Assembly: GCA_021781455.1 (NCBI GenBank)
Contig: JAJXWV010000040.1
Span: 1 to 64,000 of the forward strand
DNA length: 64,000 nt
Direction: 5' to 3'
From: Acidobacteriota bacterium
GTDB lineage: Bacteria > Acidobacteriota > Thermoanaerobaculia > Gp7-AA8
Position numbers and translations under genes: made by a program. The notes under the pieces are model-generated. The model saw only the letters and a list, made by a program, of their open reading frames with translations, did not search any database and was not told the origin of the DNA. This document shows positions 7,768 through 62,172 of the stretch, in pieces. Within the stretch, counting starts at the first letter, position 1; each line of letters starts with the position of its first letter.

Positions 7768-7850
7768 GGGTGTCGGGTCGCGGGTGTCGGGTCTCAGGAG
7801 CTAACCTTGCATTCCCGATCCCGACACCTGACACCCGACACCTGACACCC
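7768..7850. repeat. Tandem heptamer palindrome H3 (word GGTGTCG)
   Basis: The left arm (7768-7798) has heptamers GGTGTCG, GGTCGCG, GGTGTCG, GGTCTCA. The right arm (7813-7850) has the reverse complements (CGACACC, TGACACC repeated). It sits between the divergent ABC pseudogene and the quinone oxidoreductase gene. The same word is used at 26886 and 55020. Confidence 0.85.
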
Positions 7851-8860: not shown

Positions 8861-9105
8861 ACCGTCATCCTGAGCCGGCGGAACCGCGGCCCCGTCACTC
8901 TGAGCGGGCGGAACCGCGGGGGCGGTGGATGGATGGGAGCGGTGGAGCGCGGCGAAGAGTCTCTTACCGGGACGATTGTTAGGCGGAGGCGGTCGCGAGT
9001 GACGGCAGGCTCACCGCGATCGTGCAATCTGGAGACTCTTCGCCGCGCTACGCCGCTCCACCGCCCACCTTCCCCGCGGCTCCGCCGGCTCAGAGTGACG
9101 GGAGT
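8861..9105. repeat. Family A inverted-repeat element, copy 2
   Basis: A long palindrome between convergent genes. Its left end is doubled (two GAGCCGGCGGAACCGCG-like ends within 45 bp). It contains AGCGCGGCGAAGAGTCTC, a CTTACCGGGACGATT core, and the reverse arm GAGACTCTTCGCCGCGC ... GGCTCAGAGTGACGGGAG. Confidence 0.85.
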
Positions 9106-9663: not shown

Positions 9664-9795
9664 AGTGCTGAGTACTGAGTGCTGCGTACTGAGTAAGAGC
9701 CGTGAGCCTTTGACTGTGCGGGCGCTCAGTTGGCAAGATCTGGTCCCACTCAGTACTCAGCACTCAGCACTCAGCACTCAGTACTCAGCACTCAC
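9664..9795. repeat. Tandem heptamer palindrome H4 (word AGTRCTG)
   Basis: The left arm (9664-9699) reads AGTGCTG, AGTACTG, AGTGCTG, CGTACTG. The right arm (9747-9795) has seven heptamers such as CAGTACT and CAGCACT. Its outer end runs into the dehydrogenase gene and supplies that gene's stop codon. The same word occurs at 42853. Confidence 0.9.
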
Positions 9796-16849: not shown

Positions 16850-16924
16850 TTAACAGCCGGCTCTTGGCTCTTGGCTCTTGGCTCTTGGGATGGTTCACCA
16901 GGATCCCAAGAGCCAACAGCCGAT
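16850..16924. repeat. Tandem heptamer palindrome H6 (word TTGGCTC)
   Basis: Four exact copies of the heptamer GCTCTTG in tandem (16859-16890), with the reverse complement CCAAGAGCC at 16907-16915. An outer AACAGCC occurs on both sides. It is located between divergent genes. Confidence 0.85.
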
Positions 16925-21461: not shown

Positions 21462-21554
21462 CGAGAGCGCAGAGGGCGGGGCGCGGAGGGCAGGGGGCGG
21501 CGCCCGTCATCCCGACTTCACCCGCCCTCTGCGCTCTGCGCTCTGCGCTCTCCG
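21462..21554. repeat. Tandem heptamer palindrome H9 (word GCGCAGA/GGGCGGA)
   Basis: The left arm (21462-21502) reads as heptamers GCGCAGA, GGGCGGG, GCGCGGA, GGGCAGG. The right arm (21521-21554) has CGCCCTC, TGCGCTC, TGCGCTC, TGCGCTC. It is located in the divergent promoter region of two POT transporters. Confidence 0.85.
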
Positions 21555-26876: not shown

Positions 26877-26885
26877 GGTCACCTC

Positions 26886-26956
26886 GGGTGTCGGGTGTCG
26901 GGTGTCGGGTGTCGGGTTTTCTCTCCCGCGACCCGACACCTGAGACCCGCGACCCA
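26886..26956. repeat. Tandem heptamer palindrome H10 (word GGTGTCG)
   Basis: The left arm (26886-26919) holds four exact tandem GGTGTCG heptamers. The right arm (26923-26956) reads CGCGACC, CGACACC, TGAGACC, CGCGACC. It is immediately upstream of glnS. The word is shared with H3 and H14. Confidence 0.9.
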
Positions 26957-36971: not shown

Positions 36972-37192
36972 AAGGCGGCGTAGCCACCGCAAAGGCGGCG
37001 TAACCGCCGCAAGAATTTAGCGGCGGCCGTCAGGCCGCCGGAGCAGCGATCGCATCAGCGTATGAGGGCACGAAGGTACCCGACAGAAGGCTGCTGGAAC
37101 AGGCACGACGCCTCGCGCGCTCAGACGCTGGGTTGGTCTGATCGGGCGCGGCCTGACGGCCGCCGCTGGAGGGTGTCGGCGGCTCTGCCGCG
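36972..37192. repeat. Family G element, complete copy
   Basis: A gene-free stretch with imperfect terminal inverted repeats: TTTAGCGGCGGCCGTCAGGC at 37017 and GCCTGACGGCCGCCGCT at 37151. They are flanked by further GGCGGC(G)TAACCGCC hairpins. The ~110-bp interior includes GATCGCATCAGCGTA and CCCGACAGAAGGC. Its halves recur at 62054 and 60938. The size and ends resemble a MITE. Confidence 0.75.
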
Positions 37193-41969: not shown

Positions 41970-42854
41970 ATGCCTAACACCCGCGTCATCGCAGTCGATC
42001 TCGGTGGAACCAAAGTCGCGGTGGCGCTCATCGACGAACGCGGAAAAATCACCCATTGCGTCATCGAGCCGGTGGATGGCTCCTCCACCGAAGCCCCCGT
42101 CGATCAGATCGTCCGGCTGGCGAAACCGCTGATCGGCCAGGCCGAGGGTGTGGGCGTCGCCGTTCCCGGACTGGCTCGCCGCGACGGCACCGTCTGGGCG
42201 CCGAACCTTCCGGGGTGGGACCGCGTTCCTCTGGCGAAACTTCTGCGCCGGCGCCTTCGCCTCCCTGCCTTCGTCGAGAGCGACCGCAACGCCGCCGTGC
42301 TCGGCGAAGCGTGGCGCGGCGCCGCCCGCGGCAAGTCCGACGTCGTGGTCCTGATCGCCGGCACCGGCATCGGCGCCGGAATCCTCAGCGACGGCCGTCT
42401 CATACGCGGGGCGCACGAGCTTTCGGGATGCGCGGGATGGCTCGTCGTCGCCGACGAGATGAACGAGTTCACGGCGCGATGCGGCGCCCTCGAGGCGCTG
42501 GCTGCAGGCGCGGCCATCGGCCGGAAGGAAAGCCGCGACGGCGCGGCAGTGGCCCGGGCCGCACGTGCCGGAGACAAAGCCACGCGGGCGATCTTCCTGC
42601 GCGCAGGCAATCTTCTCGGTCGCGCGGTGGCGAACCTGATCAGCCTCTTCGACCCCGAAGTCGTGGTGCTGACCGGCGGACTGACGCACGCCGCCGATCT
42701 CTTTCTCGATGAATTGAAGCGGACGGCGATGCAGTTCGCCCAGCCCCTCTCCGCGCCCCATGTGGCCATCGAAGTGAGCACGCTGCAGGAGCAGGCCAAC
42801 CTCCTAGGCGCCGGCCGTCTGGCTTTCGATGGGATTGAAAGCAAAGAAGCGTAG
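41970..42854 (+). CDS. ROK-family sugar kinase
   Basis: A 294-residue ROK kinase. The ATP loop DLGGTKVAVALID (residues 9-21), the sugar-binding catalytic ESDRNAAVLGE (Asp base) and AGTGIGAGI are intact. The usual zinc motif CxCGxxGCLE is shortened to RCGALE, so zinc binding is likely lost. It phosphorylates a hexose such as glucose or an N-acyl sugar. Downstream SIS and MFS genes and the PIG-L deacetylase favour an amino-sugar substrate, by inference. Its TAG stop (42852-42854) overlaps the first heptamer of repeat H13. Confidence 0.85.
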   Translation: MPNTRVIAVDLGGTKVAVALIDERGKITHCVIEPVDGSSTEAPVDQIVRLAKPLIGQAEGVGVAVPGLARRDGTVWAPNLPGWDRVPLAKLLRRRLRLPAFVESDRNAAVLGEAWRGAARGKSDVVVLIAGTGIGAGILSDGRLIRGAHELSGCAGWLVVADEMNEFTARCGALEALAAGAAIGRKESRDGAAVARAARAGDKATRAIFLRAGNLLGRAVANLISLFDPEVVVLTGGLTHAADLFLDELKRTAMQFAQPLSAPHVAIEVSTLQEQANLLGAGRLAFDGIESKEA

Positions 42855-42951
42855 TGCTGAGTACTGAGTGCTGAGTACTGAGTGCTGAGTACTGAGTACA
42901 GAGTGTGGATCGCCGCGGACTCAGTACTCAGTACTCAGCACTCAGCACTTC
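42853..42951. repeat. Tandem heptamer palindrome H13 (word AGTRCTG)
   Basis: The clearest example: eight consecutive heptamers (AGTGCTG and AGTACTG alternating, the last two varied) at 42853-42908. A 10-bp spacer is followed by five reverse-complement heptamers at 42917-42951. It is located between two co-directional genes that otherwise look like an operon. Confidence 0.92.
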
Positions 42952-42973
42952 GCGAAACGGAGTCACGAACATC

Positions 42974-43723
42974 ATGAGCCTCGACAAGTACCGCAGCGCA
43001 GTCACGACGATCCTCGAGAAGATCTGGGCCACCCAGACCGACGCCATCCGTTCCGCCGCGCGCCTCATGGCCGATTCGGCGGGCAAGGGCGGTCTGGTGC
43101 ACCTGTTCGGCAGCGGGCATTCGGTGCTGCCGGTCCAGGACGTCTTCCCGCGGTACGGCAGCTATCCGCTGTTCCATCCGCTCATGGACGCACGCCTGAT
43201 GTGGCAGAACGTGATCGGCTCCGGCGGGGCGCGCGGGCTGCTCTGGCTGGAGCGGCGCGAGGGCTACGCGGAAGTCCTGTTCGAGAACCAGCCCATCCGA
43301 TCCGGCGACGTGATGATCGTTTTTTCTCACGGTGGCATGAACGCGGTCGGCATCGAGGTGGCGATGGAGGCGCGCAAGCGCGGCCTGAAGGTCGTCGGCG
43401 TCACGTCGATGGACAACCAGCGGCAGAAGCAGGCCAGCCATTCCAGCGGCAAGAAGCTGTCGGACGTCTGCGACATCGTCATCGACAACTGCGTTCCGGC
43501 GCAGGATGCGGTCGTGGGCATCGAGGGCTGGCTGGCGCCGGTCGCTGCGGCGTCGACCGTGGCCTTCGTGACGATCGCGAACGCGATTGTTGCCGAGGTT
43601 GCGGCGGAGATCGCGAAGAAAGGGATGAAGCCGCGGGTCTTCGTGTCGCCTAACGTCCCTGGAATTCCCGCGGACAACAATGTCCAGGTGTTCGCCGATT
43701 ACGAAAAGGCGCTTCGACGATGA
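42974..43723 (+). CDS. SIS-domain sugar-phosphate protein (UPF0309-like)
   Basis: A 249-residue SIS protein. It has the sugar-phosphate loop FGSGHSVLPV (near 46), the second phosphate site VFSHGGMNAVGIEVA, and VGVTSMDNQ. The family resembles E. coli YfeU-type sugar isomerases that act on amino-sugar phosphates such as GlcNAc-6-P or MurNAc-6-P. It starts at ATG 42974; its stop overlaps the next gene's start, so it is translationally coupled to the MFS gene. An amino-sugar phosphate is the likely ligand. Confidence 0.88.
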   Translation: MSLDKYRSAVTTILEKIWATQTDAIRSAARLMADSAGKGGLVHLFGSGHSVLPVQDVFPRYGSYPLFHPLMDARLMWQNVIGSGGARGLLWLERREGYAEVLFENQPIRSGDVMIVFSHGGMNAVGIEVAMEARKRGLKVVGVTSMDNQRQKQASHSSGKKLSDVCDIVIDNCVPAQDAVVGIEGWLAPVAAASTVAFVTIANAIVAEVAAEIAKKGMKPRVFVSPNVPGIPADNNVQVFADYEKALRR

Positions 43724-44901
43724 ACGAGCCCGGAACGGTCAGCCGTTCGCAGCTCTTCTGGGGTGCGTGTGCGGGCATGTTCGTTTTCGGCATCGTGCTG
43801 GCCATCCTCGGTGCGCTCTTCGGCCTTCCGGAGATGCGCGAGCGCCTGAACATCGACCTGGCGCAACAGGGCGACGTCTTTCTGCTGCTGTTCTTCGGCG
43901 TCTTTCTGTCGACCATCGTGGTCGGCCCGATGATCGACAGCTTCGGCAACAAGCTCGTGCTGACGCTCTCGGCCGCACTGGTCGCAGTCGCGCTGGTGAT
44001 CTTCTCGACGGCGAGCGCGTTCCTCCCGGCCATCGCCGCGGCCTTCCTCCTCGGCATTGGCGGCGGCGGCCTGAACACCTCGACGAACGCGCTGGTGGCG
44101 GATCTCTACACCGAGAACCGCGGGGCCATGCTCAACATCCTGGGGACGTTCTTCGGCGTGGGCGCACTGTTCATCCCGCTGCTGGCGGTGAGCATCACCG
44201 GTGTCTTCACGATCACGCAGCTGTTTCTCATCGCCGCTGCGCTGGCGGCTCTCTGCACGACCGCGTACCTGCTGCTCGGCTTTCCGCCGCCCACAGCGCC
44301 GATCGGGTTCTCGCTGCTGGCCTCGGTGCGGGCGGCTCGCAACCCGGGCGTGCCGCTGTTCGCCGTGCTGCTGTTCTTCCAGTCGGGCAACGAAGCCTCG
44401 ATCGGCGGATGGACCTCGACGTATGCCGGCTCGGTCGGCGCCTCGCCTAACACGGCGACCTGGGTGCTGGCGGCGTACTGGGCGGCGCTCATGCTCGGCC
44501 GGCTGGCCGGGGCGCGCCTGCTGGCGCAGGTGCCGAAGTCGCGGCTTGTCTTCGCCAGTGCCGTCGGCTCGGCGATCGGCTGCGCGGTGCTGCTGGCCTC
44601 GCCCTCGGTGGCCGTGCTCGCCGTCGGCGCAGTGATCGTCGGATTCTCGTTCGCCGCGATCTACCCGACCACCCTGGCCATGGCCGCCGACCGCTACCAG
44701 CGCCTGGCCGGGACGATCTTCGGATTCCTCTTCGCCGCCGGCCTGATCGGCGGGATGGCCTTCCCGTGGGGGATCGGCCAAATCTCGCAGCATTACGGCG
44801 TGCGCTCGGGAATGGTCCTGCCGCTCATCGGCGGGATCGCGATCTCGATTCTCGTGACTGTGATCGCCGCGCGGGAGAAGGCTGCGGCGGTCGCTGCGTA
44901 G
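43720..44901 (+). CDS. Sugar MFS transporter
   Basis: A 393-residue transporter with about 12 membrane segments (GMFVFGIVLAILGALFGLP at the N-terminus, GGGGLNTSTNALVADLY in the middle). The pattern resembles the FucP/GlcP group of sugar:proton symporters. It is coupled by a four-base overlap to the SIS gene and follows the ROK kinase, so it probably imports the sugar that those two enzymes process. Confidence 0.85.
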   Translation: MNEPGTVSRSQLFWGACAGMFVFGIVLAILGALFGLPEMRERLNIDLAQQGDVFLLLFFGVFLSTIVVGPMIDSFGNKLVLTLSAALVAVALVIFSTASAFLPAIAAAFLLGIGGGGLNTSTNALVADLYTENRGAMLNILGTFFGVGALFIPLLAVSITGVFTITQLFLIAAALAALCTTAYLLLGFPPPTAPIGFSLLASVRAARNPGVPLFAVLLFFQSGNEASIGGWTSTYAGSVGASPNTATWVLAAYWAALMLGRLAGARLLAQVPKSRLVFASAVGSAIGCAVLLASPSVAVLAVGAVIVGFSFAAIYPTTLAMAADRYQRLAGTIFGFLFAAGLIGGMAFPWGIGQISQHYGVRSGMVLPLIGGIAISILVTVIAAREKAAAVAA

Positions 44902-55019: not shown

Positions 55020-55110
55020 CAGGTGTCAGGTGTCAGGTGTCAGGAACAGGCCTGAGCCCGACACCTGAACCCCGAGACCTGACCTGACACCCGACACCCG
55101 GGACCCGAAA
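55020..55110. repeat. Tandem heptamer palindrome H14 (word AGGTGTC)
   Basis: The left arm (55020-55050) has three exact AGGTGTC heptamers. The right arm (55051-55110) extends over eight heptamers of CCGACAC, CTGAACC, CGAGACC, TGACACC type. The arms are of very unequal length, so a stem can form in several registers. It lies between divergent genes. Confidence 0.85.
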
Positions 55111-55459: not shown

Positions 55460-55488
55460 GACGCGACCCCAGAGCCGGCAAACTGCGT

Positions 55489-55692
55489 GCCCCGCCATCC
55501 TGAGCCGGCGGAACCGCGTCCCCGTCACTCTGAGCCGGCGGAACCGCGGGGGTGGTGAATGGGTGGGAGCGGTGGAGCGCGGCGAAGAGTCTCTTACCGG
55601 GACGATTTGCAGGCTTGAGACTCTTCGCCGCGCTGCGCCGCTCCAACCGCCCGTCCTCCCCGCGGCTCCGCCGGCTCAGAGTGACGGGAGTT
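55489..55692. repeat. Family A inverted-repeat element, copy 7
   Basis: A full element whose left end is doubled as in copy 2 (GAGCCGGCGGAACCGCG twice, 28 bp apart). Core CTTACCGGGACGATTTGC; right arm GAGACTCTTCGCCGCGC ... GGCTCAGAGTGACGGGAG. Confidence 0.9.
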
Positions 55693-60937: not shown

Positions 60938-61065
60938 GCGAGGCGGCGGAGCCGCCGGCATAATTTAGCGCCGGGCCGTGAGGCCGCCGTTCGATCAGCC
61001 TAAACCAGCGTCCGAGCACGCGAAGCGCGCGACAGATCCTTATGTCTTCCGCGCTTCTGTCGGGC
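60938..61065. repeat. Family G element, partial copy
   Basis: A GGCGGCGGAGCCGCC hairpin, TAATTTAGCGCCGGGCCGTG inverted-repeat end, then GATCAGCCTAAACCAGCGTC, matching the reverse complement of the right half of the element at 36972, up to CTTCTGTCGGGC. The stretch 61066-61256 beyond it shows no gene I can support. Confidence 0.65.
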
Positions 61066-62053: not shown

Positions 62054-62172
62054 CGCCTTCTGTCGGGCCTGCGTGCCCTTGTACGCTGATGCGATCGCCT
62101 GCTCCGGCGGCCTGACGGCCGCCGCTAAATTCTTGCGGCGGCTCCGCCGCCTATATTGGCGACTCCGCCGCC
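62054..62172. repeat. Family G element, partial copy in reverse orientation
   Basis: CTTCTGTCGGGCC, CTGATGCGATCGCCTGCTCC and GGCGGCCTGACGGCCGCCGC mirror the left half of the element at 36972 closely. AATTCTTGCGGCGGCTCC follows with a GGCGG hairpin. It is located in the otherwise gene-free interval before the flavoprotein gene. Confidence 0.75.

Follow-up and report, generated by a model that had tools for sequence, protein, structure and literature searches.

Heptamer repeats are overrepresented in many bacteria, with no accepted cause. The closest described systems are the GGGAATC and GGGGA(C/T)T repeats of Xanthomonas and Nostoc (PMC4692102), which, like the elements described here, form direct arrays of 7-nt words with about four units favored, lie mostly between aligned ORFs near or overlapping stop codons, and largely keep their positions between related species. 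Most of them are transcribed, and in Xanthomonas there are about 70 convergent inverted pairs (PMC4692102). In those genomes a single G-rich, G-quadruplex-forming word was studied per genome (PMC4692102), whereas the word described here, AGTRCTG, lacks the G-tract that a quadruplex needs, and our genome holds many unrelated 7-, 8-, and 9-mers that replace one another at orthologous junctions. In the literature searched, we found no paper on the AGTRCTG sequence itself. The class is best read as akin to the Xanthomonas GGGAATC heptamers; as far as we could find, word swapping at fixed junctions and the use of many words per genome are undescribed.

Three other systems share some of these traits. 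REPINs are dispersed extragenic inverted doublets with poorly conserved spacers, fixed polarity, and predicted hairpins, as here, but each REP is a short palindrome tied to a RAYT gene (PMC3116915), while our arms are direct heptamer arrays with no RAYT association that we could find. The GTAG- and CGTC-tagged REPs are likewise short dispersed palindromic repeats that form dimers with variable spacers, mostly downstream of genes, but have stems of 5 to 13 bp and a constant unpaired tetranucleotide tag (PMC3733652); the stems here are about 32 bp long, and GACG flanks only 9 of 90 arms. Beggiatoaceae and cyanobacteria have direct repeats of TAACTGA (PMC4679880), which are also intergenic heptamers, patchy across phyla, that stop all frames in one orientation. 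Unlike our elements, these are almost never paired in inverted orientation, and most of those in the Beggiatoaceae genome examined lie just before start codons.

Architecture of the ROK-SIS palindrome

The window is a 64,000-nt stretch of an Acidobacteriota genome (GCA_021781455.1, contig JAJXWV010000040.1, positions 1 to 64,000). It contains the following features.

41970 to 42854, plus strand: ROK-family kinase gene (PF00480); the last two bases of its TAG stop (42852-42854) are also the first two of the array
42853 to 42908, plus strand: left arm, six perfect AGTRCTG words (42853-42894) and two decayed words
42909 to 42918, no strand: 10-bp spacer, ATCGCCGCGG, unrelated to the spacers of other copies
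42919 to 42949, minus strand: right arm, ACT followed by CAGTACT, CAGTACT, CAGCACT, and CAGCACT, the reverse complement of the left-arm word
42974 to 43723, plus strand: SIS-domain gene (PF13580, SIS_2); the homologous start is the ATG at 42974
43720 to 44901, plus strand: MFS transporter gene (PF07690, MFS_1), overlapping the SIS stop
9664 to 9792, no strand: a further AGTRCTG palindrome, the second family member in the window; an arm gives the stop of the upstream minus-strand gene, whose C terminus is SAEY*

ORFs and Pfam matches (ROK, SIS_2, and MFS_1) bear out the co-directional ROK-SIS-MFS layout described in an earlier note on this DNA. Direct reading also agrees with that note on the 10-bp spacer and on the overlap of the kinase stop with the first word, with which it has AG in common. 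The eight left-arm and five right-arm heptamers counted there are in fact six perfect and two decayed words (AGTACAG at 42895-42901 and AGTGTGG at 42902-42908) and four perfect words and one partial word, and the element ends at 42949 rather than at 42951. In the perfect part of the left arm, AGTGCTG alternates with AGTACTG; each arm is a direct repeat of a nonpalindromic heptamer. Tandem Repeats Finder reported a period of 14 with 100% match for the array, and the AGTRCTG 14-mer, with one mismatch or none, had 17 matches in the window compared to 0.02 expected from shuffling.

In the automatic ORF call, the SIS reading frame runs back across the right arm to a GTG at 42905, and the extension (42905-42973) contains the peptide STQYSALSTS. 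This is probably a mis-extension, and the same artifact is likely wherever CAGYACT arrays precede genes. For annotation, such arrays mean false gene extensions (peptides like STQYSALST) and altered C termini (SAEY* and SPES*).

The predicted RNA fold of the element has an energy of -68.5 kcal/mol versus -36.8 for shuffled sequences (z = -8.6), and 0 of 200 shuffles folded as well, in keeping with the very stable repeated hairpin anticipated for any transcript through this point. A very stable stem straight after a stop codon could suggest that transcription ends at an intrinsic terminator, or is strongly attenuated, between the ROK and SIS genes. We consider this highly improbable: the sequence directly 3' of the stem is TTCGCGAAACG, without a U-tract; terminator prediction reported nothing there; the SIS gene starts 25 bp past the element; and the placement of other copies, described below, argues against it as well. 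A search of Rfam gave no match above the gathering score, returning only subthreshold miRNA hairpins.

Copies across the genome and their placement

The ROK-SIS palindrome is one copy of a dispersed family of intergenic hairpins and is not specific to this gene pair. In the 4.88-Mb genome, whose closest named relative is a Thermoanaerobaculia MAG, two adjacent AGTRCTG words occurred 488 times in the forward and 484 times in the reverse orientation, whereas the reversed-word control had 0 and 1 matches. The canonical 32-nt arm, AGTGCTGAGTACTGAGTGCTGAGTACTGAGTR, had 99 and 79 exact matches, with overlapping ones counted. Polarity, spacers, positions, and arm lengths were taken from a 735-kb sample of the genome, in which gene positions came from our own simple gene caller. 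Successive arms less than 200 bp apart were convergent (forward then reverse) in 33 cases, forward-forward in 2, and reverse-forward in 0; paired arms always converge. Arm length peaked at 31 to 32 nt (35 of 90 arms), making the standard arm about 32 nt, or 4.5 words. The flank before the arm showed a weak preference for CGA (14/90), ACG (13/90), or TGA (10/90).

Spacers were mutually unrelated in the sample, except for two long ones that hold another dispersed repeat, and no target-site duplication was evident in the flanks of the copies examined, and we rejected a miniature inverted-repeat transposable element (MITE) with a shared interior on these grounds. Such unrelated spacers are odd for a simple mobile unit. 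The constant tag of the CGTC/GTAG-tagged REPs is missing, GACG being the flank of so few arms. The genome has 14 Y1_Tnp genes, and at none of the 10 loci checked was the gene flanked by AGTRCTG arrays, which speaks against mobilization by a RAYT; several of the ten carry inverted repeats of their own, unrelated to AGTRCTG, and no mobilizing enzyme was found among them.

Among 53 AGT-type elements or arms, the simple gene caller placed 41 at tandem, 9 at divergent, and 3 at convergent junctions, which is close to the makeup of all junctions. There was no preference for convergent genes in this set, and convergent junctions were underused if anything. For paired elements between co-directional genes, 21 of 26 lay nearer the upstream stop than the downstream start by the same caller, with a median distance to the stop of 3 bp. 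In seven elements, the stop codon lies wholly or partly within the arm; four of these give an array-encoded SAEY* or SPES*. The genes beside AGTRCTG elements are functionally unrelated to one another.

In this genome, such palindromes occupy both of the junctions inside the pyruvate dehydrogenase (PDH) operon. Complete termination would be costly within this operon, so these copies, together with the lack of a preference for convergent junctions, count against a terminator. The earlier note had proposed that the hairpin reduces expression downstream of the kinase or stabilizes the kinase mRNA. As an operon-specific role this is unsupported: copies lie beside unrelated genes and at divergent junctions, convergent junctions are not enriched, the U-tract and terminator call are lacking, and ROK-SIS pairs occur without the element (see below). 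The hairpin may still have an incidental effect on mRNA stability.

Other words with the same architecture

AGTRCTG is one of many words. Of 122 intergenic tandem arrays in the 735-kb sample, 96 have a period of 7 or 14; period-7 arrays numbered 60 in intergenic versus 5 in coding DNA, and period-14 arrays numbered 36 versus 1. Markov-simulated sequence contained no arrays of either period. Further words found in inverted pairs include AGTCCTG, GAATTGA, GAAAATT, GGCTCTT, GGGTGTC, and GCAGATC, as well as the 8-mers GGTTGCGC and GGTCACCG. Words of 7, 8, and 9 nt share the inverted-array architecture, nearly always between genes, and for words with several pairs the left-right polarity is mostly constant. 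There are about 14 arrays per 100 kb in this genome and 11.5 in other family members; in small samples from other families of the class, the density is near zero in most, with two arrays in 20 kb in family f4.

We considered whether the arrays could have a local origin only, with slippage making the heptamer arrays and strand switching (quasipalindrome correction) making the inverted copy, without any movement. Both arms of an element use one word, the copy number of words varies between arms, and polymerase slippage has been proposed for heptamers, which are overrepresented among bacterial repeats (PMC4692102). This explanation nonetheless seems quite unlikely to us, given that one alternating 14-mer and one arm length of 31 to 32 nt recur at many loci, that polarity is invariant, and that a complete element lies within a viral gene, as reported below.

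The same junctions in related genomes

We compared the orthologous ROK-SIS junctions, a check that the earlier note had called for, and found that relatives keep the gene pair without the palindrome. In a member of the same family (G012), the two genes overlap by ATGA with nothing between them. In the sister species of the same genus (G001), there is a 106-bp gap with no palindrome and three CTCATGC-like words. The element sequence was not seen as coding DNA in relatives, an observation that the earlier note had named as refuting its reading. On this comparison, the palindrome is an insertion relative to the family members.

The PDH operon illustrates how words differ at one position. Most relatives have only a few bases between E1b and E2, but four genomes carry palindromes there, all directly after the stop and each with a different word: AGTRCTG in this genome (G000), GGCATGA/GGGATGA in G001, GCCCAGT in G015, and GGTGAAA in G009. 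The E1a-E1b junction has AGTCCTG in both G000 and G001; in other genera (G012 and G009; L180 and L186), we observed long near-perfect palindromes without a heptamer period at that junction. Further junctions shared by G000 and G001 pair AGTACTG with GGATTTT, AGTGCTG with GGCATGG, and AGTCCTG with GGGGTCG, while AGTCCTG is common to both genomes at two more. Where an element is shared, the arm word is kept and the spacers have diverged. In the sister species, nothing occupies the junction that holds the L116:16720 element.

For a controlled comparison, random co-directional junctions of G000 with and without an element were located in G001 by concatenated protein queries and scored for iterated arrays of 7 to 9 nt, with mismatches allowed. 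An array was present in G001 at 13 of 17 element junctions, compared to 2 of 16 controls whose gaps were at least 40 bp (Fisher P = 3.6e-4) and 0 of 14 short-gap controls. Because the controls were picked for having neither arrays nor inverted repeats in G000, some of them may hold insertion-resistant promoters. Judged by eye, 11 of the 13 shared junctions have a different word in G001, and 2 have the same or a nearly identical one. In the more distant G012, arrays were found at 4 of 14 element junctions, in each case with a different word, and half of the junctions (7 of 14) were tight (19 bp or less). Sharing therefore decays with kinship, a pattern that fits inherited occupied sites with renewed words better than it fits a requirement set by the genes themselves.

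Selection for an intercistronic hairpin within the genus could also account for shared positions with different words. The hairpin would serve mRNA processing, differential stability, or attenuation, and its word would be free to drift or be replaced so long as the stem is preserved. The positions common with the sister species despite the change of word, the fold (z of -8.6), the predominance of co-directional junctions near stop codons, and the retention of arm words while spacers diverge are all compatible with this. However, the same junctions are tight and empty in other family members, the neighboring genes are functionally unrelated, divergent junctions are occupied too, and conserved operons such as PDH do without the hairpin in most relatives. 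We regard such selection as unlikely.

Copies in viral contigs

In a 5.8-kb viral contig, the ORF of a terminase large subunit contains a complete, in-frame AGTRCTG palindrome; related terminases are 24 to 26 amino acids shorter at this site.

L315:4858-4957: terminase palindrome (IMG/VR 3300037308_000429)

In a relaxed scan of viral contigs, the word occurred in 32 stretches with GC contents of 0.35 to 0.69, with 14 convergent and 0 reverse-forward pairs. The viral copies point to mobility or exchange, without indicating the source bacterium. Plasmid records gave weak one-arm matches only, and phage records gave none. We also observed a 40.8-kb viral contig, IMGVR_UViG_3300005578_000008 (L362, L368, L371, L374, and L380), with dense AGTGCTG/AGTCCTG palindromes.

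Proposed spread and renewal of the elements

On balance, we think it fairly probable that the elements are REPIN-like: noncoding intergenic inverted repeats with heptamer-array arms that spread by copying, stay at inherited positions, and have their words renewed there. The large number of copies, and the different words at sister-species junctions, make the ROK-SIS palindrome look like a spreading, self-renewing repeat and not an operon switch. With no U-tract, no Rfam match, and no AGTRCTG arrays at the ten Y1 loci checked, REPIN-like copying is favored, presumably by another enzyme. We infer that the spread would be active and would proceed through a single-stranded hairpin, and that the elements may for the most part be neutral or selfish and have no regulatory role.

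Under this reading, the family would spread by copying into junctions, mostly at or just past the stops of co-directional genes, where insertion would do the least harm. The arm carries TGA every 7 nt; it would consequently stop all frames and could replace the stop of the host gene. Once a junction is occupied, its position would be inherited and its word renewed: homogenization may give rise to near-identical words (AGTCCTG to AGTRCTG), and an unrelated word may overwrite the old one or arrive when another family reinserts into a slot that is already noncoding. The ROK-SIS hairpin would be transcribed if the operon is, and its presence would need no function.

A less probable but credible alternative, which we hold tentatively, is a word-agnostic process that writes iterated 7- to 9-nt palindromes into junctions, later rewrites them with another word, and reaches phage genes too; neither RAYT transposition nor slippage alone would explain such a process.

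REPIN-like or not, these elements combine many words with one architecture, adjoin stop codons, and swap words at fixed positions between sister species. This swapping makes what is kept (place and hairpin) separable from what is not (sequence), so that the origin of the elements can be tested by comparing strains.

Other repeats in the window

Iterated-heptamer palindromes with other words lie at 7768-7850, 16859-16918, 21465-21553, 26884-26955, and 55020-55110 of the window, and their words include GGGTGTC, GGCTCTT, CTCTGCG, and CAGGTGT. Another dispersed repeat, about 215 bp long, is present in pieces at 36993-37167, 60939-61040, and 62103-62152; it occurs at many sites in the genome and also within the two long element spacers. 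Repeats of the CCCTGAGCCGGCGGAACCGCG type at 8862-8919 and 55468-55548 belong to another dispersed intergenic family.
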